From Actinomycetota bacterium (GTDB lineage: Bacteria; Actinomycetota; Thermoleophilia; BMS3ABIN01): a stretch of DNA of 64,000 bases. The notes below the pieces were generated by a model, which had not been told where the DNA came from, did not search any database, and saw nothing but the letters and a program-made list of their open reading frames with translations. Positions 14,628 through 26,993 of the stretch are shown here, piece by piece. The stretch lies in NCBI GenBank assembly GCA_016235065.1, contig JACRMB010000002.1, positions 1 to 64,000 of the forward strand, in the 5' to 3' direction. The position numbers were made by a program, and so were the translations under genes. How positions within the stretch are numbered: position 1 is the stretch's first letter; each line of letters starts with the position of its first letter.

Positions 14628-15797
14628 TCACCGGTCGACGCCTCCCATCAGCAGGTCGAGGCTGCCGACGATCGCTACCAGGTCGGCGATCTTGTTGCCG
14701 GCGGTGAGTTTGGGGATCATCGAGATGGCCGAGAAGGTCGGGTCGCGGAGCTTCAGGCGCCACGGACGCAGACCGCCGTTCGAGACGATATAGACCCCGT
14801 ATTCGCCCCGGGGAGTCTCGACAGCGCGGTATACATCGCCTGCCGGAGGCCGGAGCATCGGCGGCAGCTTGATGTTGACCGGTCCACCGCAGATGGAATC
14901 CAGCGCCTGCTCGATGATCTTCACCGACTGGCGCATCTCCTCGATACGGCACTTGTAACGGTCGAAACAGTCGCCGTGCTGGCCCAGCGGCACGTCGAAA
15001 TCGAACTCCGGGTAGACGGAATAGCCTACTTCGCGCCTGAGGTCCCAATCGACTCCGGACGCCCGGGCGTTGGGGCCGGAGATGCCGTAGTCGAGCGCCT
15101 CATAAGGTTTGATGATGCCCATCCCCAGGGTCCTGGAGATGAAGATCTCGTTGTCGGTGATCAGCGCTTCGTACTCGTCGATCCTGGCCGGGAACTCGCT
15201 GATGAACTTACGGCAGCCGGCCTCGAATTCGTCGGGAAGGTCCCAGCGGACTCCACCGACGCGCAGGTAGTTGTACATCATCCTCTGCCCGGTGGCCATC
15301 TCCATCAGGTCCATCGCATCCTCGCGGTCGCGGAAGACCCAGAAGAAGGGGGTCACGGCTCCCAGGTTGAGCATGAAGTCGCCGATGGCTACCTGATGGC
15401 TCATGATGCGGTTCAGTTCTCCCAGGATGACGCGGATATATTCCGCCCGCTTGGGGGCCCGGATGCCCATCAGCGCTTCGACGCTACGGACGTAACCCCA
15501 TTCCATGAAGAAACCGGAAAGATAATCGAGGCGGCTGATCATCGCCATGTACTGCAGGTAGGTACGGCTCTCGGCAAGTTTCTCGAAGCCGCGGTGAAGG
15601 TAACCGAGCACCGGCTCGACGCTCACCACGAGTTCGCCATCCAGGTGCAGTACCAGCCGCAGCACCCCGTGGGTCGACGGATGCTGCGGACCCATGTTGA
15701 GGACCATCTCCTCCAGGTGGAAGCTCGGCGGAGCCTGCTGGCTGTTCTGTTCTTCAGGCGGCGATTTCGGGCCGTTCTTTTCTTCGATGACGCTCAT
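14628..15797 (-). CDS. nuoD: NADH-quinone oxidoreductase subunit D
   Basis: The 389-residue subunit is homologous to the hydrogenase large subunit and forms the quinone site with NuoB. Visible family motifs are [20 protein letters not shown] (quinone His), [25 protein letters not shown] and the C-terminus [11 protein letters not shown]. The start is the ATG at 15797, which overlaps the nuoC stop (ATGA). A 35-residue charged and Pro-rich N-terminal tail precedes the conserved core. Confidence 0.95.
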
Positions 15798-16342
15798 GAC
15801 CTGTCCCTGCGGTCGGTCTCTCCGGGAAGCCGCTTGGGCCTCTCGATCCCTTCCCAGCGCCATTCGGTGCGCCTGACGCGATGGGGCCAGGCATCCTTCT
15901 TCATGGGATGGGTGTCATAGTCTTCACGGGTGAGGATGCGCCTCAGGTCGGGATGGCCGATGAATTTTATCCCGAAGAAATCGTAGGCCTCCCGCTCGTG
16001 CCAGTTGGCGCCGCTCCAGATATAAGTCACGGAAGGAAGTTCTGGTTTCTCGCGGTCGAGCCGGATCCGCAGCCGCACAGGTATCGAATGTTCCTGTGAC
16101 CGCAGCAGATAGATCGCCTCCATCCAGTCGACGTAGTCGACGCCGATGATGCAGCTGATGTATTTGCATGAGAGCGTCTCGTCGTCGCGCAGGCGCAGGG
16201 CGGCTTCAGGCAGGTCGCCGGGCCTGACCTCGATCACCAGGTGCCAGTCCGAGACGCTTACGTCGCGGGCCAGTTTGCCCATCAGCTCCCTGGTATGGTC
16301 GAGGGCATCCGGCGCCCTGTATTTCTGATGCTCCCGGCTCAA
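15794..16342 (-). CDS. nuoC: NADH-quinone oxidoreductase subunit C
   Basis: The 182-residue protein contains the 30-kDa-subunit signature [19 protein letters not shown] followed by [21 protein letters not shown]. It joins NuoD to form the connecting module. The start is a TTG overlapping the nuoB stop (TTGA), with a GGCGAGAG stretch upstream. No ATG is available before the conserved part, so the TTG is the only sensible start. Confidence 0.93.
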
Positions 16343-16887
16343 CTCTCGCCGCCTTCGGGTTTCATCTTGACGTGGTCGCTCATGGGGCCGCCGGTAAGCC
16401 GCTTGGCCGCGCCTACCTGGGTGTCCTGCTTCACTTTCAGCTGCAGCTGCTGCATCCCGTAGATAAGGGCTTCGGGCCGCGGCGGGCAGCCTGGTATATA
16501 TACATCAACCGGGATCAGCAGGTCGATGCCCTGCACTACATTGTAGGAATCCCAGAACATGCCGCCGCTGCAGGCGCAGGCACCCATGGCGATCACCCAG
16601 CGCGGCTCGGACATCTGATGGTGGAGGTGGCGGATGATCGGCGCCATCTTGTCGGTGATGGTGCCGGAAACGATCATGACGTCAGCCTGGCGCGGTGAGG
16701 CGCGGAAGACTTCCATGCCGAAACGCGCCATATCGTGGCGGGGCATGGTCGAAGCCATCATCTCGATGGCGCAGCAGGCGAGACCGTAGGTGAAAGGCCA
16801 GAGCGAGTTGGCCCGCGCCCAGTTGAACAGCCTGTCAGTGGTCGTCGTGAGGATGTTCGGATGTTCGAATTTTTCCAGCAGCGACAT
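16339..16887 (-). CDS. nuoB: NADH-quinone oxidoreductase subunit B
   Basis: The 182-residue subunit carries cluster N2, the last Fe-S centre before quinone. The ligand motifs are present: [10 protein letters not shown] (Cys 38 and 39), [11 protein letters not shown] and [11 protein letters not shown]. The start is the ATG at 16887, one base after the nuoA stop codon. Its length matches the family. Confidence 0.96.
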
Positions 16888-16888
16888 G

Positions 16889-17257
16889 TCAGACCCACTC
16901 CAGGGCGCCCTTGCCCCAGGCATAGATGAGGCCGAACAGGAGCACGGCGAAGAAGATCATCATCTCCACAAAACCGGTCATACCCAGGGTCCTGAAGACC
17001 ATGGCCCATGGGAACAGGAACACTGCTTCCACATCGAAGATTACGAACAGCAGGGCGAAGATGTAATACCTGACGGCGAAGGGGGTGCGGCTGTCGCCGA
17101 CGGGAGGGATGCCGCATTCGTAAGGCGTGAGTTTTTCGGGATAGGTGTGGCGCCTCTGGATGAGTCGGGAGATGCCGAGAAGTCCCAGGACAAACACGAC
17201 ATCCAGCAGGCCCATGACGGCCACGGTGAGGTAACTATAAGTATAATCAGGAGTCAA
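16889..17257 (-). CDS. nuoA: NADH-quinone oxidoreductase subunit A
   Basis: The 122-residue, three-helix subunit shows the NuoA signature [20 protein letters not shown] followed by [20 protein letters not shown]. It is the first gene of the operon. The start is a TTG at 17257 with GGAG about six bases upstream. The 180-base leader in front of it contains a promoter and a terminator-like hairpin. Confidence 0.94.
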
Positions 17258-17344
17258 GTCCGGCTCCGGTCGTTAGAGCGGTTCCTGATCCTGCCGTGCG
17301 CAGGCCCAATCTTCCCCCTCGAAAACACTTCTTGACATGATAAC

Positions 17345-17409
17345 GGGAGCCTGAAAAAACCCGTGACTGCCACGGGCACACTCGCTGTGAATGACGTGAG
17401 TAGGCTCCC
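17345..17409 (-). promoter_or_regulatory. Structured nuo leader with terminator-like hairpin
   Basis: Between the nuo promoter and nuoA the minus strand contains a hairpin CCCGTG/CACGGG (17360-17376) directly followed by six T residues (17354-17359), which has the form of an intrinsic terminator. It is nested in a longer inverted repeat, GGGAGCCT with AGGCTCCC (17345-17352 and 17402-17409). Upstream segments (ACTC/GAGT, CACG/CGTG) could form competing stems. The arrangement suggests attenuation of the nuo operon. I do not recognise it as a known riboswitch class. Confidence 0.5.
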
Positions 17410-17444
17410 AATTGATGCAAGCTGTGGACCTTTAATTCGCGCAT

Positions 17445-17473
17445 ACTATATTGGAACGACGCCTGAATTACAA
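17445..17473 (-). promoter_or_regulatory. nuoAp: Sigma70-type promoter of the nuo operon
   Basis: The minus strand reads TTGTAA (17468-17473), a 17-bp spacer, and TATAGT (17445-17450, five of six matches to TATAAT). The predicted start is near 17438, giving a leader of about 180 bases before nuoA that includes the hairpins at 17345-17409. Confidence 0.6.
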
Positions 17474-17550
17474 ACGCTTTTTCTCGCGGTTAAAGGCCTT
17501 GTAGATAATGCTTTTTGTAGGGTTTCGATCACCTGGTTTTATTCGTGCGT

Positions 17551-17574
17551 GCGGGGGGCACTGGCGCCCCCCGC
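17551..17574. other. Strong GC hairpin between the Usp gene and the nuo promoter
   Basis: GCGGGGGGC and GCCCCCCGC form a perfect 9-bp stem with the loop ACTGGC. It lies 60-85 bases past the stop of the minus-strand Usp gene and before the nuo promoter. There is no T-run on either side, so it could be a U-less terminator for the Usp operon or an insulator. The rest of 17474-17634 shows nothing else I can name. Confidence 0.4.
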
Positions 17575-17634
17575 GAACTATCAGTCCAGGCCTCAAGCTA
17601 ATCAGAGGAGCCCTGGTAAATCCATTTCCTGATA

Positions 17635-18486
17635 TCAGTCCGGTTTGGTGACGAATACCGCGCACGGAGACATGCCTATGATCTTTTCAGCGACGCTGCC
17701 GAGGAATATCTTCTTCAAACCCGAAAGTCCGCGGCTGCCGACGAATATTATCCCGGCGTTGTTTTCCCTGGCATACGCTGTTATCTCAGCGGCTGGATTG
17801 CCGTGCAGTAACTGCGAGTACAGCTCTATCCCAGACGTGCTTGCCCGGGAAACGGCATCTTTCAGGACCATGTTCGCCTTCTCATCGAGCTTTTCCACGA
17901 CTCCCCCTGCATCCGCATAGTGTTCGGGATGCATGTCGACCACGGTCACTCCCGTGATCAGGCTTTTGTAGCGTCTGCTGAAATCGATAGCCTTGGCAAG
18001 GGCCTTTTCACCATTGGCAGACCCATCAGTCGCGACAAGAATATTGTCCCAGCCGATCTCAGCCTCGCGCGGGATGACCAGGATATCTGTCGAAGAGTGG
18101 ACGATGACTTTAGCGGTCACGCTTCCCATCAGCATGCGTTCTACCCGGTGCAGGCCGCGGCGTCCCATTACGATCAGGGTGCAGTTCTCATCCTTTGCCA
18201 CTTCGATGATGCGCTCGAATGCCTCTCCCTTGACGACATCGATGTTCACCCGGGCTGATTCCGTACCGATGATTTCTTTCGCAGCCTGCTTCAGTTCCTC
18301 GGTCGGCCCGCTTAGCAGACTATGGATATCGTGAATGCCGACGAGCTCCAGATCTCCCTCATAGGCAGGGGTCACGATCAGGACCTTGATCCAGCTGTCC
18401 TCGAACTTGTCCAGGGCCTGGCGCAGTGCATTCCGACTCGATTCAGATCCGTCGAAAGCTACGAGTATCTTGCTGTAGTTTCCCAT
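17635..18486 (-). CDS. Tandem-domain universal stress protein
   Basis: The 283-residue protein consists of two UspA domains (residues about 3-145 and 148-283). Both keep the ATP-binding G-2X-G-9X-G(S/T) pattern: GRRGLHRVERMLMGS in the first and GSRGLSGLKKIFLGS in the second. Such proteins bind ATP or AMP in the cytoplasm and modulate stress responses. It is the last gene of an apparent sigma54-driven operon and starts one base after the TSUP stop. Its partner there is a permease, so it may regulate transport; that is inference. Confidence 0.9.
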   Translation of the reverse strand: MGNYSKILVAFDGSESSRNALRQALDKFEDSWIKVLIVTPAYEGDLELVGIHDIHSLLSGPTEELKQAAKEIIGTESARVNIDVVKGEAFERIIEVAKDENCTLIVMGRRGLHRVERMLMGSVTAKVIVHSSTDILVIPREAEIGWDNILVATDGSANGEKALAKAIDFSRRYKSLITGVTVVDMHPEHYADAGGVVEKLDEKANMVLKDAVSRASTSGIELYSQLLHGNPAAEITAYARENNAGIIFVGSRGLSGLKKIFLGSVAEKIIGMSPCAVFVTKPD

Positions 18487-18487
18487 G

Positions 18488-19816
18488 TCAGACCCTCCCG
18501 GCGATTGCAGCTCTTTCTTCCAGTCTCGACCTGATGATGCCCTTGACCATGGCGGCAGTGATGATTCCTCCCGCGACCAGCAGGGCGGCTATCAGAGCCC
18601 AGAAGCTGACCGTGTCGAGCACGCTTGCCAGGCTTTTGTCCAGTGACAGGATTCCCAGATGATCGAGATAAACAGGAATCTTCACGCCCCTGCTGACGGC
18701 GACGATCACCATCACGGTGCCCATCACCAGCTTGATCGTGTAATCCTTAACGTAAGTAGTGCCGAGGGCGCCCAGCTGAACGCCGAAGAGCGAAGTCGCC
18801 AGGATGATCAGGACCAGCCTTATATCAACCAGGCCGGCCATTGCCCACTGTACCGAACCCCACATGCCCATGACGAAGGCGATGAGCAGCTCGGTGGCGC
18901 TGGCTACCATGGCGGTTGCGCCGATGACATAGACCATGCCGGGCACGCCCACGAAACCACCGACGGCGATCGTCGCGGCCAGAAGGCCGGTGAAAAAACC
19001 AACCGGTAGTGTCACCCACGCCGAGATAACGACGTCCGCTTTTTTGAAATGGATCATTGGCGGCAGCTTGATCTTCTGCAGCCTCGATGCCAGCTTCGGA
19101 GTCTTGGCATCCGCATCGCCCTTGGCCATGGTCATGGCGTCTCTGAAAACGAAGAGGCCGACGACAAGCAGGATGATCACGAAGACGAAACTCACATAGA
19201 GATCCGACCCGGCGCTGCCCCAGGAATCAAGGATCCATTTCTGGATCTGAAAACCGACCTGGACGCCAGCTATCGAGGATGCCGCGATCACGAGCCCCAG
19301 CTTCACATCGACCTGGCCGTAGCGGAACCGCTTGTAGGAGCCAACCATGGCCTTGGGGAACTTGTGGCACATGTTGCTGGCTACCGCAACAGCTCCCGGG
19401 GCGCCCAGCGACATCATGGCGGGTGTCAGCACAAAGGCGCCGCCAGAGCCGATGAAACCGCTCAGAAGGCCGCCTACCAGGCCCACTATCAGCAGGGCGA
19501 TCAGTTTATCCCTGGTGAGTCCCAGGAACATCGGGGTTATCTCCGTCACAGTCTCCGAGCCTTCGGTCTCGCTGAAAGACACCATTGCCTTGTCGTCCAG
19601 CTTGACGTCCTCCGGTTTGATTGACTCTTCTATATTGACTGTTGCGGGTTCGCCAGTCTCGGAAGGCACGAACGTCGCCGTGTGCGATGCCGCGTCAACC
19701 TCGGTGAACGAGCCGATCTTGAAATTAGCCGGCGGGGCGCTCTCCGCAAATGCGGCGGGCGCGAAGGTCAGCGTTATAAACAATGCCGCCAGAAGTACAA
19801 CGATCCATTTCTTCAT
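18488..19816 (-). CDS. TSUP (TauE/SafE-like) permease with N-terminal extracytoplasmic domain
   Basis: A cleavable signal peptide (residues 1-25, ending AFA-ES) is followed by a beta-rich domain of about 70 residues. A sulfite-exporter TauE/SafE-type membrane domain follows, with the two family repeats GLVGGLLSGFIGSGGAFVLT and FFTGLLAATIAVGGFVGVPG. These permeases move sulfite, sulfonates or related small anions. I use the ATG at 19816 (MKKW, a usual signal-peptide start); an ATG at 19828 is also in frame, and AAGGGAG lies immediately before that one. The exact substrate cannot be read from the sequence. The gene sits between two Usp-related genes in one operon. Confidence 0.85.
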   Translation of the reverse strand: MKKWIVVLLAALFITLTFAPAAFAESAPPANFKIGSFTEVDAASHTATFVPSETGEPATVNIEESIKPEDVKLDDKAMVSFSETEGSETVTEITPMFLGLTRDKLIALLIVGLVGGLLSGFIGSGGAFVLTPAMMSLGAPGAVAVASNMCHKFPKAMVGSYKRFRYGQVDVKLGLVIAASSIAGVQVGFQIQKWILDSWGSAGSDLYVSFVFVIILLVVGLFVFRDAMTMAKGDADAKTPKLASRLQKIKLPPMIHFKKADVVISAWVTLPVGFFTGLLAATIAVGGFVGVPGMVYVIGATAMVASATELLIAFVMGMWGSVQWAMAGLVDIRLVLIILATSLFGVQLGALGTTYVKDYTIKLVMGTVMVIVAVSRGVKIPVYLDHLGILSLDKSLASVLDTVSFWALIAALLVAGGIITAAMVKGIIRSRLEERAAIAGRV

Positions 19817-19866
19817 TATTCTTTCCATCTCCCTTGTTGCGATTGATAACTATTAATAGTGCTCGT

Positions 19867-20109
19867 TTAGTGTCCGGTACCTTTGGCCGCCTGCAGGCCG
19901 ACTATCGATAAGACGGTACTTGCGAAGGAGCCATACACAATGGAGAAATACAGGGCGGTCACAATCGGCAGGACTGTGTATACTCCGCCCCTGACGAAAT
20001 ACTCCATGACCTGGTTCACGTTTGTGAACAGGAAGTAATATGAAGCCAGCGATAATAATCCCAGTGCCAGCGCCTGGGGATAGGGTTTCTTCTTTGCGGT
20101 TTTACTCAC
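19867..20109 (-). CDS. Small two-helix membrane protein
   Basis: The 80-residue protein has a basic N-terminus (MSKTAKKK) and two hydrophobic segments (about residues 13-30 and 42-72). I do not recognise a named family. Its ATG overlaps the stop of the preceding Usp-like gene (ATGA) and it precedes the TSUP permease, so it may be an accessory subunit of the transporter. The second TSUP locus (36036-38405) also carries a small membrane protein next to the permease. Confidence 0.7.
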   Translation of the reverse strand: MSKTAKKKPYPQALALGLLSLASYYFLFTNVNQVMEYFVRGGVYTVLPIVTALYFSIVYGSFASTVLSIVGLQAAKGTGH

Positions 20110-20600
20110 GATAGTGCTCCTTCTTGTTCGTTGATCGATTTTTCCGAGACGAGCGCCAGCGGGCAGCCGAGCTTTTCCCAGATACCGGAAAGGCGCTTCT
20201 GCTCACTCGAGCAGTCGCTGTTGAGGGCGTCAGTGGATTCGATGACTACACAGACGAGGTCACGCCGGCCACGGGCGTACTTGATGACCGCCTCTTTGAT
20301 GCAGCCGCTCTTTTTAGTGACCTTTAGGGGCACTCCATGCTGGCGCGCTTTTTCCTCGCCAAGCCGCAGCATCTCGGCAGTGCTACTTCCTTCAGCGGCC
20401 AGGACTTCAAGGCCCGCCCCGGTTCTTTCAGCGATGCTGAACGCATATTTGAGGGACTTGACGTCGGTTTCCCGGCCGGTGAGGACCAGCAGTACCTTCC
20501 GGTTACCGTCGAGCATTTCGCGGGCGGTTTCGAACTCCCCAGCCTCAGCGAAGGATGCGGCTGAGATCATTCCCTCCAGTCTTTTACTGATACGGCTCAA
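20106..20600 (-). CDS. Usp-like protein lacking the ATP-binding loop
   Basis: The 164-residue protein has an N-terminal helix motif (SKRLEGMISAASFAEAGEFE, then TAREML) and then a Usp-like alpha/beta domain (KVLLVLTGRETDVKSLKYAF, then LAAEGSSTAEMLRLGEE). It has no G-2X-G-9X-G signature, so it is probably a non-ATP-binding Usp relative. The start is a TTG at 20600. The N-terminal motif is shared with the 61-residue protein encoded just upstream, which points to a common docking element. The function is unknown. Confidence 0.7.
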   Translation of the reverse strand: MSRISKRLEGMISAASFAEAGEFETAREMLDGNRKVLLVLTGRETDVKSLKYAFSIAERTGAGLEVLAAEGSSTAEMLRLGEEKARQHGVPLKVTKKSGCIKEAVIKYARGRRDLVCVVIESTDALNSDCSSEQKRLSGIWEKLGCPLALVSEKSINEQEGALS

Positions 20601-20611
20601 AACAGGTGGCC

Positions 20612-20797
20612 TCAGGCCTTCGGGGCGAGATGGCCGTGTTTGATACGCGGCGCTGCCGGCTTGAGGTCGTCGGCGGCACGTGCCCGGCGTGGCTCACTGG
20701 CGTCTTCCCCGGCCATCTGTCTGGCCGCTTCGAACTCGCCCTCTTCCGCAAATGCCGCTGCGGAAAACAGGTTTTCCAGCTTTTTTGACAGTTTCAT
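20612..20797 (-). CDS. Small conserved-motif protein, first gene of the sigma54 operon
   Basis: The 61-residue protein is MKLSKKLENLFSAAAFAEEG followed by EFEAARQM and a basic, Pro-containing tail. The first 30 residues align with the N-terminus of the next gene product (SKRLEGMISAASFAEAGEFE), differing mainly by conservative changes. An AAGGAGGA ribosome site lies nine bases before the ATG. It is the first gene downstream of a clear sigma54 promoter. I recall similar short proteins near permeases in sulfate-reducing bacteria, but cannot name a family. The function is unknown. Confidence 0.75.
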   Translation of the reverse strand: MKLSKKLENLFSAAAFAEEGEFEAARQMAGEDASEPRRARAADDLKPAAPRIKHGHLAPKA

Positions 20798-20840
20798 ACG
20801 TGCGATCCTCCTTGGAATTGGTCTTTGCCACCATTACATG

Positions 20841-20857
20841 TAGCAACAACCGTGCCA
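20841..20857 (-). promoter_or_regulatory. Sigma54 (-24/-12) promoter
   Basis: The minus strand reads TGGCAC, five bases, TTGCT, which gives the required GG-N10-GC spacing and matches the RpoN consensus at every key base. The predicted start near 20831 leaves about 33 bases to the ATG at 20797. Transcription needs an AAA+ activator, and an NtrC-family activator gene lies divergently at 22497. Confidence 0.85.
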
Positions 20858-20975
20858 ACTTAAAAAAATATTCGTGAAAAATTAGAAAATATTTGTAAAT
20901 ATCCTGCAAAAATAGACATTATACGGATGGGTATTCAATACCATAGGGGAATTACGCGAAGGATAAAAAGCCAAA

Positions 20976-20997
20976 TATGTAACAGATATGTTACATA
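20976..20997. promoter_or_regulatory. Perfect 8-bp inverted repeat, likely enhancer/operator
   Basis: TATGTAAC and GTTACATA are separated by six bases (AGATAT). The site lies about 145-165 bp upstream of the predicted sigma54 start point and about 100 bp upstream of the divergent kinase gene. This is the usual position for an NtrC-type enhancer and could also mediate autoregulation of the two-component pair. The remainder of 20858-21093 is AT-rich and shows nothing else I can assign. Confidence 0.6.
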
Positions 20998-21093
20998 AAG
21001 CAACGCTTTTACTTTTGTGCTTTAAGGAAGAGCTATACCGCTGTTGCACCGATGAAGTAGAAGGTTGCATCTTGCAATGCATGGCGATATATT

Positions 21094-22494
21094 ATGGGCA
21101 TGAGGTTCTATCCGGACAGTCTGAGGCAGAAGATCCTGATCGGCTATATCGCGGGCGCGATGCTCGTTTTTGCCTTCGCCCTGCTCAGCTGGAGCAATCT
21201 GAATACCCAGCAGGAGATTGTCTCGTCGGGCGAGACCGTATCGAGCCTTTTTGACACGACTTTGGAGATAAGGCGTTTTGAGAAGAATTATTTTCTGTAC
21301 CGGACAGCAGAGGACTACGCTGAGCTGCGCTCATACATAGCACAGGCCGAGGAGCTCCTGAGCAGGGAGGAACTCAACCTGTTCACGACGCCCGAGGTGA
21401 TAGCAGGCCTCGAGGAAGACTTGCGGATCTATGGTGATCTGCTGGGCGAGGATGTCTCCGCCCCCGGCAGCGCCGGCGATCCCGCACTCGAGGCTCTGAT
21501 CAGGGAGAAGGGCAAGGAGATCGTCACCACAGGCGAGCAGATATCCGCCAGCCGGGTCGAGATCAACAGGGAGTCCCTTGAATCGGCCAAACGTAATCTG
21601 CTCATCGGGATCGGCCTGTTGCTGGTCGCCGTATTTGCCGGTGGTCTGATCTTCTCCCGCAAGGCGGTGCGGCCGCTTTCAGTCCTTGAAAAGCACATGG
21701 TCCGGATAACCGCGGGCGAGTTCTCACTTATCCCAGTGAAGTTCAAAGACCGCGAATTCGTCTCGCTCAAGGCCGCCTTCAACAAGATGCTGCTCGAATT
21801 GCGGGAGCGGCAGGACTACCTGGTCGAATCTGAGAAATACGCTGCCCTGGGCACCCTGGTGTTCGGTGTCGCCCACGAGCTGAACAACCCCCTTGCCAAC
21901 ATCTCCACCTCGACCCAGATCCTGAGGGAAGAGATCGACGAAGGGGATATCGAATACCAGAAGGAGCTGCTGGAGCAGATCACCGAGGAAACCGGCCGAG
22001 CCCGTCATATAGTCGGCTCGGTCCTCAATTATTCCCGCTCCAAGGAAAGGCAGACTTTTCAACTCAGGGACGCGGTCGAGGAGACCGTCCGCTTGATCAA
22101 GGCTGAAGTGCCGGCAAGCGTGGTCCTGCAGGTCGACATCCCGGAAGACCTGACCGTCTACGCCGACAGGCAGAAGATCCAGCAGGTGATCATCAACTTG
22201 GTCAAGAACGCCATCGACGCCATCGACCGCGTTGATGGCAAAGTCAGGATAATGGCAGTCAGGCTGGATGAAAAGAATGTGGAGATAGTGGTTATCGACA
22301 ACGGCGCCGGCATGGAGCAGGAAAAACTTGCGAAGATCTTCGATCCCTTCTTCACCAGCAAGAAAGAGGGATACGGCCTGGGCCTGTTCATCGTTCACAA
22401 CATAATCACGGAATATGGTGGCAGCATCAGCGTCGACAGTTACCCCGGCAAAGGTACGACATTCACTATTGTACTTCCCATGAAGGAGTCTTGA
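21094..22494 (+). CDS. Membrane sensor histidine kinase (NtrB-like partner)
   Basis: The 466-residue kinase has a first membrane helix at about residues 14-34, an extracytoplasmic helical sensor region to about 165, and a second helix at about 168-190. A HAMP-like segment and a HisKA box with the phosphorylated His (GVAHELNNPLANISTSTQIL) follow. The HATPase domain shows NLVKNAIDAID, DNGAGM and GYGLGLFIVHNI. The AHELNNPL type is typical of kinases that pair with NtrC-family regulators, and such a regulator follows with a short overlap. No strong ribosome site is seen, so the ATG at 21100 is equally possible. The signal it senses is unknown. Confidence 0.9.
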   Translation: MGMRFYPDSLRQKILIGYIAGAMLVFAFALLSWSNLNTQQEIVSSGETVSSLFDTTLEIRRFEKNYFLYRTAEDYAELRSYIAQAEELLSREELNLFTTPEVIAGLEEDLRIYGDLLGEDVSAPGSAGDPALEALIREKGKEIVTTGEQISASRVEINRESLESAKRNLLIGIGLLLVAVFAGGLIFSRKAVRPLSVLEKHMVRITAGEFSLIPVKFKDREFVSLKAAFNKMLLELRERQDYLVESEKYAALGTLVFGVAHELNNPLANISTSTQILREEIDEGDIEYQKELLEQITEETGRARHIVGSVLNYSRSKERQTFQLRDAVEETVRLIKAEVPASVVLQVDIPEDLTVYADRQKIQQVIINLVKNAIDAIDRVDGKVRIMAVRLDEKNVEIVVIDNGAGMEQEKLAKIFDPFFTSKKEGYGLGLFIVHNIITEYGGSISVDSYPGKGTTFTIVLPMKES

Positions 22495-22496
22495 AG

Positions 22497-23927
22497 ATGG
22501 AACGGACAGGACGGCTGCTGATCGTCGAGGATGAGAAGACGGCGCTCAAGAACCTGCAGCACGTGATGAAGAAAGAGGGCTACGAGGTGACAGGCACACT
22601 CAGCGGCCCTAACGCCCTGCAGCTTCTGGAGAAGGAAGAATTCGACGTGGTGCTGACCGACCTGAAGATGGAGAAGGTCGACGGAGTCGAGGTCCTGGAA
22701 CGGAGCCGGCAGCTCTATCCCGATTCCGAGGTCATCATGATCACGGCTTACGCATCGATCCCTTCGGCCGTCGAGACGATGAAGAAGGGCGCCTACGATT
22801 ACATCGCCAAACCCTTCAACCTCGACGATGTCCGCAAAGCCGTCAAGGCTGCGCTGGAAAAGGTAGCGCTGAAAAAAGAGAATACCCAGCTTCGCGAGCA
22901 GCTCGAACGCTTCGAGGGCAAGGTCAGGATAGTCACCCAGAATTCGATGATGCAGAAACTGCTTGAAACCGCCAGGCAGATCGCGCCCACCGATTGTAAT
23001 GTTCTCATCTCCGGCGAGTCCGGGACCGGCAAGGAGCTGCTGGCGCGGTACATCCATCATGTGAGCAACCGCAGCGAGGGACCGTTCTTCGCCATCAACT
23101 GCGGCGCTCTCACCGACGAGCTGCTGACCAACGAATTGTTCGGGCATGAGAAGGGCGCTTTCACCGGCGCCTCCAGCCAGAAGAAGGGCATAATCGAGAC
23201 AGCTTCAGGCGGCACCCTGTTCCTTGATGAGATAACGGAGATGTCACCAGCCATGCAGGTCAAGCTGCTCAGGGTGCTGCAGGAAAAAGAGCTGCTGAGA
23301 GTCGGAGGCACGGAGTCGATCGAGGTGGACGTCAGGATTCTGGCGGCTTCTAACCGCAACATCCACGAGGCAACCAAAGAAAAAGAATTCCGGCAGGACC
23401 TCTATTACAGGCTGAACGTCGTATCGCTACAGATTCCGCCGCTGTCCGAGCGGCGCGATGACGTACCGCTCCTCTGCCAGTTTTTCCTGAAGAAGCACTC
23501 GGCGCTGATGAAGAAGGACGTGAGGGAGATATCGCCTTCAGTCCTGGGCCTCCTCGCCGACTACGACTTCCCCGGCAACGTGAGAGAGCTCGAGAATATC
23601 ATCGAGCGGGGCGTGGCCCTGGCGCATGGACATACCATCGAACTGGCCCATCTTCCCGACGACCTCAAGGACCTGGAGATCAAGACTTTCAGGAAAAGGG
23701 AGGGAAGGTTCCCGTCGTTAGAGGAACAGGAGATATCCTACATACTCTGGGTGCTGAAGGAGACAGGGGGCAACAGGACGCTGGCTGCGAATATCCTGGG
23801 CATCGACAGGGTCTCGCTGTGGAGGAAGATCAAGAAGCACGGCCTGGAAGATTCCTGGCAGGCGGCGAGCCCGAAGGAAGATAGAGCCGGGGAGTCCGCG
23901 AGCCCGAAGGGCGACAATGCCGGGTAG
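22497..23927 (+). CDS. NtrC-family sigma54-activating response regulator
   Basis: The 476-residue regulator has a receiver domain (residues 5-120, LTDLKM with the phospho-Asp), an AAA+ domain (GESGTGKELLARYIHH Walker A, GAFTGA sigma54-contact loop, GGTLFLDEI Walker B) and a C-terminal Fis-type HTH (GGNRTLAANILGIDRVSLWR). I choose the ATG at 22497 because AAGGAG lies eight bases upstream, whereas an in-frame TTG at 22491 is too close. It overlaps the kinase operon and very probably activates the divergent sigma54 promoter at 20841-20857. The last 20 residues come from a 33-bp tandem repeat. Confidence 0.95.
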   Translation: MERTGRLLIVEDEKTALKNLQHVMKKEGYEVTGTLSGPNALQLLEKEEFDVVLTDLKMEKVDGVEVLERSRQLYPDSEVIMITAYASIPSAVETMKKGAYDYIAKPFNLDDVRKAVKAALEKVALKKENTQLREQLERFEGKVRIVTQNSMMQKLLETARQIAPTDCNVLISGESGTGKELLARYIHHVSNRSEGPFFAINCGALTDELLTNELFGHEKGAFTGASSQKKGIIETASGGTLFLDEITEMSPAMQVKLLRVLQEKELLRVGGTESIEVDVRILAASNRNIHEATKEKEFRQDLYYRLNVVSLQIPPLSERRDDVPLLCQFFLKKHSALMKKDVREISPSVLGLLADYDFPGNVRELENIIERGVALAHGHTIELAHLPDDLKDLEIKTFRKREGRFPSLEEQEISYILWVLKETGGNRTLAANILGIDRVSLWRKIKKHGLEDSWQAASPKEDRAGESASPKGDNAG

Positions 23928-23963
23928 ACCGCGAGCCCCAAGGAATAAAGCGCAGGGACAGCC
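23865..23963 (+). repeat. 33-bp tandem repeat at the end of the response-regulator gene
   Basis: Units starting GCGAGCCCGAAGG occur at 23865, 23898 and, diverged, at 23931. The regulator's TAG stop falls inside the second unit, so the repeat encodes a repetitive ASPKxDxAGE-like tail and continues past the gene. Confidence 0.75.
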
Positions 23964-23990
23964 GGCAAGCCAGGCTACAGCGCAGGGCTG

Positions 23991-24830
23991 CTACTGATCC
24001 CCGTTAGCCAGCCCCGCGAACTGGGCGATCACTCCCAGCGAGTTGATGATGAAATGGCCCCCGATCGACGGCCAGATGGAACCGGTTTTGTGAACCAGGA
24101 ACGCCAGACCGAAGCCCAGGCCGAAGATCGGTACGAAGAGCCGGTAGTCGATGTGAGCAAGCGCGAAGATAAAAGCTGAGAGGGCGCCACCGGAAAGCAA
24201 TCCGAACTGCTGCTCAAGGCCCCGGTGGATTATTCCACGGAAGAACAGTTCCTCAACGACCGGCGTGATCAGGGCGACGGCGGCGAAGGTGAGGATGAAC
24301 GCGCCCACCGAAGATCCATACAGGGTCGTCACATCCTGGGACGGCACTTCCGAGGGCAGCTGACTCTCGCCGGCAAGGGTCTCGATCAGCCAGCCATATC
24401 CCACCTGCAGAAAACTGGTGGCGAAGAGCACCACGAAAAGCCAGCCCGCGGCTGGCCAGAAGCGGGTCCGCCGGAATCCCAGGATGGCTGCACTCAATCC
24501 GTAGCCACGGATCTTGAGATAAGTGACCGGCACAGCCAGGGTCACCACCCACTGCATGATCATCAGCAGTGTGACAGCCAGCCCGGATTCGGTGATCGAG
24601 CCAGGATCGAATTCAGGATCAGTGGCAAAGGCGGCCAGCAGGATGGCCTCAATCACGAATAAAGCGAAGAAGAAGCTCAGGATCACCAGGCCGACGACGA
24701 TGAAGACGTCGCGGCCAGACCAGGGGACCCGGTCGGACGATTGCGCTGTCTGGTCGCCCGGCTGCGGCACACCGGGACCCTGGATGCCGTTCAGCCACTC
24801 ATTGTTTTCCTGCCCTCCGGTTTTTCCCAA
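23991..24830 (-). CDS. CPBP-family intramembrane metalloprotease
   Basis: The 279-residue multipass protein carries the CPBP (Abi) motifs: EELFFRGIIHRGL (EExxxR), FALAHIDYR (FxxxH) and HFIINSLG (HxxxN/B). These residues form the putative metal site of CAAX-type intramembrane proteases. An N-terminal polar tail of about 35 residues precedes the first helix. The start is a TTG at 24830; it is not well supported by a ribosome site and an internal start is possible. It lies ten bases downstream of the slipin gene. Confidence 0.85.
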   Translation of the reverse strand: MGKTGGQENNEWLNGIQGPGVPQPGDQTAQSSDRVPWSGRDVFIVVGLVILSFFFALFVIEAILLAAFATDPEFDPGSITESGLAVTLLMIMQWVVTLAVPVTYLKIRGYGLSAAILGFRRTRFWPAAGWLFVVLFATSFLQVGYGWLIETLAGESQLPSEVPSQDVTTLYGSSVGAFILTFAAVALITPVVEELFFRGIIHRGLEQQFGLLSGGALSAFIFALAHIDYRLFVPIFGLGFGLAFLVHKTGSIWPSIGGHFIINSLGVIAQFAGLANGDQ

Positions 24831-24839
24831 ATCCGTCAG

Positions 24840-25595
24840 CTAGGCTCCTTTGCCCATGAACGCCTTGATCAGGTCGATCGGTACCGGGAATATCGTAGTG
24901 GAATTGTGCTCCGATGCCACTTCCACCAGGGTCTGCAGGTAGCGCAGCTGCAGGGAAACGGGTTCGGCGGCGATGACATTGGCGGCCAGGGCCAGCTTCT
25001 CAGAAGCCTGGAACTCGCCCTCGGCGGCGATGATCTTGGCGCGGCGTTCGCGCTCAGCCTCGGCCTGGCGGGCCATTGCCCTCTGCATGGTCTGGGGGAT
25101 CTCCACATCCTTCACTTCCACGGTCACGACCTTGATACCCCAGGGGGCCGTCTGCTCGTCGATTATCTGCTGCAGCTGCTGGTTGATCTTGTCGCGTTCC
25201 GCCAGCAGGTGGTCGAGGTCGGCCTGGCCCAGCGTGCTTCGCAGGGTCGTCTGGGCGATCTGGGAAGTGGCGACTATGTAGTCCTCGACCTCGACGATAG
25301 CTTTGCTCGGATCCATCACCCGGAAGTAGACGACGGCATTCACCTTGGCTGGAACATTGTCGCGGGTGATGATCTCCTGGGGCGGCACGCTCATGGTGAC
25401 GATGCGCTGGTCCACTTTGACCATACGGTCTACAAATGGTATTAACAGAAACAGTCCAGGCCCCTTGGTGGCGATCAACCGGCCCAGGCGGAAGATCACG
25501 CCGCGCTCATACTCCCGGGCGATGCGGATCGAAGAAAGCAGCACCAGGATCAGGAAAAAGAAAATTATCGCCAGGATGATCGTCACGACAGCCAT
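24840..25595 (-). CDS. Slipin/stomatin-like SPFH protein
   Basis: The 251-residue protein has one N-terminal membrane helix and then an SPFH domain with the bacterial slipin blocks [40 protein letters not shown] and [18 protein letters not shown], followed by a helical tail ([16 protein letters not shown]). Slipins form membrane-associated rings and are often encoded with NfeD-type proteases, as here; the NfeD gene lies directly upstream, 15 bases away. The ATG follows GGAGG. Confidence 0.93.
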
Positions 25596-25610
25596 TAGAA
25601 CCTCCAGTGT

Positions 25611-26993
25611 CTATTTATTGGACCGGATGACCTTCAGCATGAGCCCCCGCACGTCGACCACCTCTACTTCTACCCCTTTTTCTATCGTCTGTCCCTCGGG
25701 CGCCTCGGCGCTCCAGATCTCGCCGCGCACGAATATCTGTCCGAGCGGATCAAGCTGGCTGCGGGTATAGCCGATCTCGCCGACCATCGCCTTCTGACCG
25801 GTGCGGGCCGGCATGCGCCGCGCTTTCATCACCTTGCTGGCCACCAGCACAAAGAAGGCCACGGCCATCAACGCCAGGGCGATGTTGACCGGCCAGGCGA
25901 CCCGCAAAAACGGCGCCGAGGAATCGAAGAGGAAGAACGAGCCGAGGATCAGGCAGGCGACGCCGCCGATAGTGAGCGCGCCGTGGCTGGTTATATACAG
26001 CTCCATCACCAGCATGACCACCCCGGCCAGGACCAGCGCCAACCCCGTATAGCTGACCGGCAGCATATACAGGGAATACAGGGATAGCAGCAGGGCGATG
26101 GTGCCGCTGACGCCGCCGAAACCTATGCCCGGATGGACGAACTCGTAGATTATGGCGATCAGGCCATAGATGAAGAGCAGGTAGGCGACGTTCGGGTTGA
26201 ACAGCAGGCTCATCAGCTCTTCCTTGAGGTCCTTGCCCGCCTCGCTCACAGGAACGTCGGTGGTCTCGATGGTGATGCCTTTGGCTTTCGTGGTGTACCC
26301 GTCCAGCTGGGAGAGTAGCGAGTCCATGGTGTCGGCCCTGAACTCGACGACCTGTTTTTCCAGGGCTTCGTCCGCCGTCAGGGAGACTGACTGGCGCACG
26401 GCCAGCTCCGCCCAGTTGGCGTTCCTGCCGTTGGCCTCCGCCAGCGAGCGGATATAAGCCGCCGAGTCGTTGGTGATCTTGATGCCCTCGTCAGATGAGA
26501 GGTCGGCGCCGATCGCCACGGGGTGGGCCGCCCCCAGGTTCGTGCCCGAAGCCATCGCCGCCACGTCGGATGCCGTGACCATGAAGGTTCCGGCCGAAGC
26601 AGCCCGCGCTCCGGATGGAGCCACCCAGGCAACCACCGGTAGCGGCGAACCGTTCATCTCCTTGATGATGTCCCGCATGGACTGGTCCAGCCCGCCGGGC
26701 GTATCGATGCTGAGAACCACGATGCTGTTGCCGTTCTGCGAGGCCTCACTGATGTTGCGGGTGATGTAATCTGACATCGCCGGGTCGATGACGCCTTCCA
26801 CCGGGATGACCAGCACCCCGCCCTGGCTGTCGGCTGCCTGTCCCGAATCTCCCGGGAAGGACCCCGCCAGGATCAGGGCCAGGATGATTGCGAGGATGCC
26901 GGAGGCCAGCAGTACTGCGCGGCGCGCCGGCTGGCCCGATGGCGACCGCAAGTCCTTGCGTTTACGCCTGTTTCTATCGCTGCGCCGAGCCAT
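25611..26993 (-). CDS. Long-form NfeD (membrane ClpP-class serine protease)
   Basis: The 460-residue protein has an N-terminal membrane anchor (residues 25-45), a ClpP-like domain with the nucleophile region APSGARAASAGTFM and GTNLGAAHPV, several membrane helices (about 280-400), and a C-terminal OB-fold domain (GEIGYTRSQLDPLGQIFVRG). This is the 1510-N/NfeD1b architecture, which cleaves hydrophobic parts of slipin partners. The ATG overlaps the stop of the upstream ABC permease gene (ATGA). Confidence 0.93.
   Translation of the reverse strand: MARRSDRNRRKRKDLRSPSGQPARRAVLLASGILAIILALILAGSFPGDSGQAADSQGGVLVIPVEGVIDPAMSDYITRNISEASQNGNSIVVLSIDTPGGLDQSMRDIIKEMNGSPLPVVAWVAPSGARAASAGTFMVTASDVAAMASGTNLGAAHPVAIGADLSSDEGIKITNDSAAYIRSLAEANGRNANWAELAVRQSVSLTADEALEKQVVEFRADTMDSLLSQLDGYTTKAKGITIETTDVPVSEAGKDLKEELMSLLFNPNVAYLLFIYGLIAIIYEFVHPGIGFGGVSGTIALLLSLYSLYMLPVSYTGLALVLAGVVMLVMELYITSHGALTIGGVACLILGSFFLFDSSAPFLRVAWPVNIALALMAVAFFVLVASKVMKARRMPARTGQKAMVGEIGYTRSQLDPLGQIFVRGEIWSAEAPEGQTIEKGVEVEVVDVRGLMLKVIRSNK

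Follow-up and report, generated by a model that had tools for sequence, protein, structure and literature searches.

A divergent pair of transcription units in an Actinomycetota MAG lineage very likely forms a self-contained two-component sigma-54 switch, with its own regulator, operators, promoter and operon, a probable limit on the expression of its histidine kinase (HK) and response regulator (RR) genes, and a presumed anion cargo. The chances are somewhat better than even that the actinobacterial family concerned has a minimal working sigma-54 regulon (one rpoN, three enhancer-binding proteins (EBPs) and around six strong promoters), with one of the three circuits imported intact from Nitrospirota, operator included, and working with a distantly related resident sigma-54. 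Positions below refer to the window, the whole 64,000-nucleotide stretch of DNA that was analysed.

17635–18486, minus strand: tandem Usp (PF00582 in two stretches; ATP motif G-x2-G-x9-G-S in both halves)
18488–19816, minus strand: TSUP (TauE/SafE) permease (PF01925, 4e-35; 121.9 bits against a gathering score of 32.6)
19867–20109, minus strand: small membrane protein of 80 aa, encoded upstream of the TSUP permease in an order conserved in relatives
20106–20600, minus strand: degenerate single-domain Usp with the AFAEEGEFEAAR motif at its N-terminus (alignment; AlphaFold/Foldseek matches to Usp structures)
20612–20797, minus strand: 61-aa protein with the AFAEEGEFEAAR helix motif (translation, motif scan)
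20842–20857, minus strand: sigma-54 −24/−12 promoter TGGCACGGTTGTTGCT, an exact match; predicted transcription start at about 20831
20976–20997, no strand assigned: palindrome TATGTAACAGATATGTTACATA of the original prediction; right arm part of operator A, left arm unconserved
20990–21004, plus strand: predicted operator A, GTTACATAAAGCAAC, a positionally conserved GTTGCANNNTGCAAC-type site centred at about −166 from the predicted sigma-54 start
21043–21048, plus strand: invariant half-site GTTGCA between A and B (TGTTGCA in 10 of 10 aligned family intergenic regions)
21064–21078, plus strand: predicted operator B, GTTGCATCTTGCAAT, overlapping the HK promoter −35 region; present in 10 of 10 family members
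21065–21093, plus strand: probable sigma-70-type HK promoter, as read from the sequence (TTGCAT 21065–21070, 17 bp, TATATT 21088–21093)
21100–22494, plus strand: sensor HK (Pfam HisKA, HATPase and HAMP) with a periplasmic all-helical sensor; probably leaderless
22491–23927, plus strand: NtrC-type RR (Pfam Response_reg, Sigma54_activat and HTH_8, all over cut-off)

A sigma-54 promoter facing the operon

The sequence TGGCAC-N5-TTGC, with the conserved GG and GC of a sigma-54 promoter, occurs exactly only once in the window, as TGGCACGGTTGTTGCT at 20857–20842 on the minus strand, bearing out the consensus-perfect −24/−12 element that had been proposed to face the minus-strand operon. The direction is kept in relatives: of 40 homologous intergenic regions, 32 have an operon-facing −24/−12 core and none an HK-facing one (shuffle mean 0.045); the other eight showed no clear sigma-54 core. 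Across the 2.37-Mb genome, loose −24/−12 matches number 13, about six of them with the strong TGGCAC/T...TTGC form. A weak operator-like match, GTTGCTACATGTAAT (20833–20847, minus strand), overlaps the −12 element and is stronger in several Desulfobulbales; it may represent a feedback site, or a mere by-product of the TTGC of the −12 box.

Two in-phase predicted operators

When all 5-mer dyads were counted without bias across 35 non-redundant regions, drawn from Actinomycetota, Nitrospirota and Desulfobacterota, GTTGC-N5-GCAAC came out on top, present in 24 regions, where the best of any dyad in 100 shuffles reached four. A weight matrix places two such sites in the window, operator A (20990–21004), with two mismatches against the consensus, and operator B (21064–21078), separated in 10 of 10 family members by 72–75 bp, equivalent to 6.9–7.1 turns of the helix. 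Most loci of the Desulfobulbales-type set have their main site some 163 bp upstream of the −24 element. The window's own genome has no exact match to GTTGCANNNTGCAAC and three one-mismatch matches, operator B among them; the other two (C3:407514 and C6:12416) are not near strong sigma-54 sites, so a single regulator target is likely, and a wider regulon in this genome was rejected on the same grounds.

The kinase and its response regulator

Pfam assignments and translation agree on the histidine kinase and NtrC-type activator originally described, the RR having both features sought in a bacterial EBP, the GAFTGA loop and the Walker A sequence GESGTGKE. Its scores against the NCBIfam equivalog models for AtoC, ZraR and NtrC (455, 398 and 394 bits) are well below the respective cut-offs (714, 760 and 559), and it is therefore none of the three. 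The recognition helix, IDRVSLWRK, hardly varies among 43 orthologues, whose overall identity is mostly 59–92%; neighbouring paralogues and the two remaining EBPs of the genome have different helices. On sequence grounds, this near-invariance is taken to tie the regulator to the operator. The helix alone is no proof of specificity, since a similar one occurs in some EBPs encoded near TSUP genes with no more than ∼50% identity (L075, L084). Several family members also have a second, paralogous HK–RR pair with TSUP and Usp genes adjoining the locus (L035, L037, L038), in which the regulator shows 45–48% identity and the recognition helix is another one.

Position 21100 suits the HK start better than 21094 does, and TATATT or a near match precedes the conserved ATG (21100) by about 6–8 bp in the family; the HK transcript is probably leaderless, starting at that ATG. 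Operator B covers the −35 region of this promoter, which suggests autorepression of the HK–RR genes. The periplasmic part of the kinase is conserved across phyla, with an alignment motif LExRRFEKNYFLY; the sensor matches no Pfam family, even at a loose threshold, and its AlphaFold model is all helical, with the anion sensor NarQ as best match at low identity.

Alternative readings of the operator sites

The original prediction placed the binding site in a perfect 8–8 palindrome at 20976–20997, TATGTAAC-N6-GTTACATA, which is exact in the sequence and, in the genome search proposed with it, unique at up to two mismatches. The closest sister genomes keep 13 of its 16 positions and differ at three; all others differ at five or more, where about six would be expected by chance, and the exact palindrome is confined to the window. 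Perfect palindromes of such size arise by chance: the window contains perfect inverted repeats with 8-bp arms and loops of ≤10 in 18 clusters, and 5.7% of shuffled copies of the HK/operon intergenic region contain one, so that the palindrome alone is weak evidence. Its half-sites lie in opposite orientation, and its left arm is lost in all other relatives, whereas the overlapping GTTGCANNNTGCAAC is kept; an alignment of 10 family members shows conservation of GTTGCAT-N-ATGCAAC, which overlaps the right arm. Conservation and geometry were thus taken to rule the palindrome out as the operator, and use of it by the regulator as an enhancer is very unlikely. The prediction had the wrong register, the conserved GTTGCANNNTGCAAC at 20990–21004 sharing only the palindrome's right arm, and it overlooked the second copy at 21064–21078.

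The GTTGCANNNTGCAAC element was itself identified from conservation only, and another factor, for example a repressor or nucleoid protein, might occupy it while the NtrC-type regulator binds elsewhere; that arrangement is given little credence, as the element accompanies the orthologous regulator, recognition helix included, in three phyla, and one of the best-class matches in the genome sits next to the gene for the regulator itself. Alternatively, the sites could mainly repress the HK–RR promoter, as the position of operator B on the HK −35 region would allow, leaving the sigma-54 operon to be activated by one of the two further EBPs in the genome. Gene order is conserved with this EBP, however, the RR keeps its GAFTGA, and operator A lies off the HK promoter core, which together make such a division of labour highly improbable. 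Activation by the adjoining regulator from both GTTGCANNNTGCAAC copies remains the preferred reading.

The divergent operon

Pfam supports the TauE permease and the tandem Usp of the operon as originally listed, and the 'Usp-like' protein holds up by predicted fold but not by family score. The 20106–20600 product scores 15.2 bits against PF00582, below the gathering score of 24, and on inspection the ATP motif is missing; its model matches Usp structures, TeaD first, with TM-scores only near 0.5. The 80-aa membrane protein belongs to no Pfam or NCBIfam family. A helix motif, AxAFAEAGExxTAR, for which there is likewise no Pfam or NCBIfam model, occurs in the stand-alone small protein (20612–20797) and at the N-terminus of the degenerate Usp (20106–20600); it is also N-terminal in apparent Desulfobulbales relatives of the small membrane protein (L086, near 9644) and near the C-terminus of a receiver-domain protein (L173, 4953–5501), and may be a shared docking tag. 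No Rfam match to a structured RNA was found within 15000–26000.

Sigma-54 in the host genome

Absence of rpoN from the genome had been named as a finding that would count against the prediction; a single full-length rpoN is present, with AID, CBD and DBD regions and the RRTVAKYRE box, alongside three EBPs. Within the phylum, rpoN was found in 15 of 396 genomes, six of the 15 in the window's family, where one listed member (G008) is without it; as six family genomes have the gene, contamination is an unlikely source. A 2025 survey describes Actinomycetota as effectively without functional RpoN (PMC12316311), and an earlier survey likewise reports RpoN as lacking in the phylum (PMC3162934); a literature search for rpoN in Thermoleophilia found nothing relevant. 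Since one actinobacterial family has rpoN, activators, promoters and operators, all of them conserved, the statement that the phylum has no functional RpoN becomes directly testable.

The host belongs to an Actinomycetota MAG lineage, with sister genomes labelled Thermoleophilia, Gaiellales or Actinomycetes. WhiB, found in 95 of 198 genomes of a phylum sample, which fits Actinomycetota, is absent from this genome and from the same-class genomes listed, and the 23S insertion near position 1550 that is typical of many Actinomycetota has no counterpart of ≥12 nt in this genome. Neither absence excludes the phylum, because deep-branching classes may lack both. The 23S rRNA gene (G000:C5:412827–416337) has two insertions: one of ∼75 nt near position 290, and one of ∼511 nt at E. 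coli position 1931 that is probably an intron. The genome also encodes dsrA, above the curated cut-off, and the lineage is sulfite-reducing.

Other strong sigma-54 sites (G000:C3:506000–525900 and G000:C3:66000–85900) have genes for exported or membrane proteins and the rpoN-linked EBP in their vicinity, hinting at a small surface-protein sigma-54 regulon. The third EBP of the genome (L173, 8989–10359), encoded beside receiver and kinase genes, has GAFPGA in place of GAFTGA, a change reported as inactivating NifA in Bradyrhizobium (PMC4641369).

Distribution and origin of the module

The divergent layout of HK–RR genes and operon is kept in the genome's family, and a search of GTDB genomes with a TSUP alignment located the same module in Desulfobulbales, other deltaproteobacteria and Nitrospirota, with many loci in Nitrospirota and Desulfobacterota. 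A tree of 43 regulators unites the actinobacterial sequences in a single clade, placed inside Nitrospirota with strong support, and that phylum is the apparent source of the activator. A tree of 15 RpoN sequences groups the family with other actinobacterial RpoNs, apart from Nitrospirota and Desulfobacterota; the grouping is provisional, because the tree covers these phyla only. The simplest reading of the two trees would be a Nitrospirota-type imported circuit plugged into a resident sigma-54.

Proposed mechanism

Control of the divergent sigma-54 operon by the HK and NtrC-type RR, the core of the original prediction, is well supported by comparison of promoter, direction, gene pairing and rpoN. 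Sequence comparison is likewise the footing for gene order and operator; binding, activation, autorepression, signal and cargo are inferred. The membrane kinase, through its periplasmic all-helical sensor, would phosphorylate the co-encoded NtrC-type regulator; the phosphorylated regulator would bind the two in-phase GTTGCANNNTGCAAC copies, and its GAFTGA loop would contact sigma-54 RNA polymerase at the −24/−12 element, turning on the divergent operon of small protein, Usp-like protein, small membrane protein, TSUP permease and tandem Usp. The same binding, at site B, probably limits HK–RR expression, given the overlap of this site with the −35 of the kinase's own promoter.

The operon would most likely handle an anion such as sulfite. 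For the TSUP substrate and the kinase ligand, gene neighbours and weak fold matches allow no more than a guess. Given the NarQ match of the sensor model and the presence of dsrA, a reasonable one would be sulfite or a related anion; dsrA together with the recurrence of the module in sulfate-reducing and related lineages is in keeping with such a cargo.

Comparison with known systems

The locus offers a compact candidate case in which an entire regulatory circuit has passed from one phylum to another, and its operator motif allows the regulator's target to be predicted across many sulfur-metabolising lineages. Circuits of this kind are already known, since Desulfovibrio vulgaris places TSUP operons under sigma-54 two-component control and has, separately, a UspA stress operon; a literature search did not find the operator, the multi-phylum module, the actinobacterial setting or the gene set described.

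Nine sigma-54 operons with TSUP/PSE transporters have been reported in D. vulgaris (PMC4641369, PMC3333781), and in DVU0110/DVUA0057 with DVU0132–0133, as proposed here, NtrC-type RRs and sigma-54 promoters control TSUP operons, in a comparison that leaves the operators aside (PMC4641369, PMC3333781). The host phylum differs, and a gene set in which a tagged small protein, a degenerate Usp and a small membrane protein occur together was not found described there. The three-component general stress system DVU3303–3305 is similar in layout, its regulator adjoining and controlling a membrane/UspA-domain operon (PMC3333781); it is upregulated in several stresses, and orthologues are reported in Thermodesulfovibrio (PMC3333781). 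Unlike the locus described here, it has GAFSGA for GAFTGA, an extra Lon-type response regulator and an autoregulated operon. At the level of domains the window's RR resembles the AtoC/ZraR/NtrC-type regulators, combining a receiver, a sigma-54 AAA+ domain and a Fis-type HTH, with AtoC and ZraR as the nearest NCBIfam models. TeaD, the Usp of the TRAP transporter TeaABC of Halomonas elongata and the best structural match of the degenerate Usp, shares with it the encoding of a Usp alongside a transporter, although the transporter is TRAP there and TSUP here, and the protein here bears the N-terminal helix motif.
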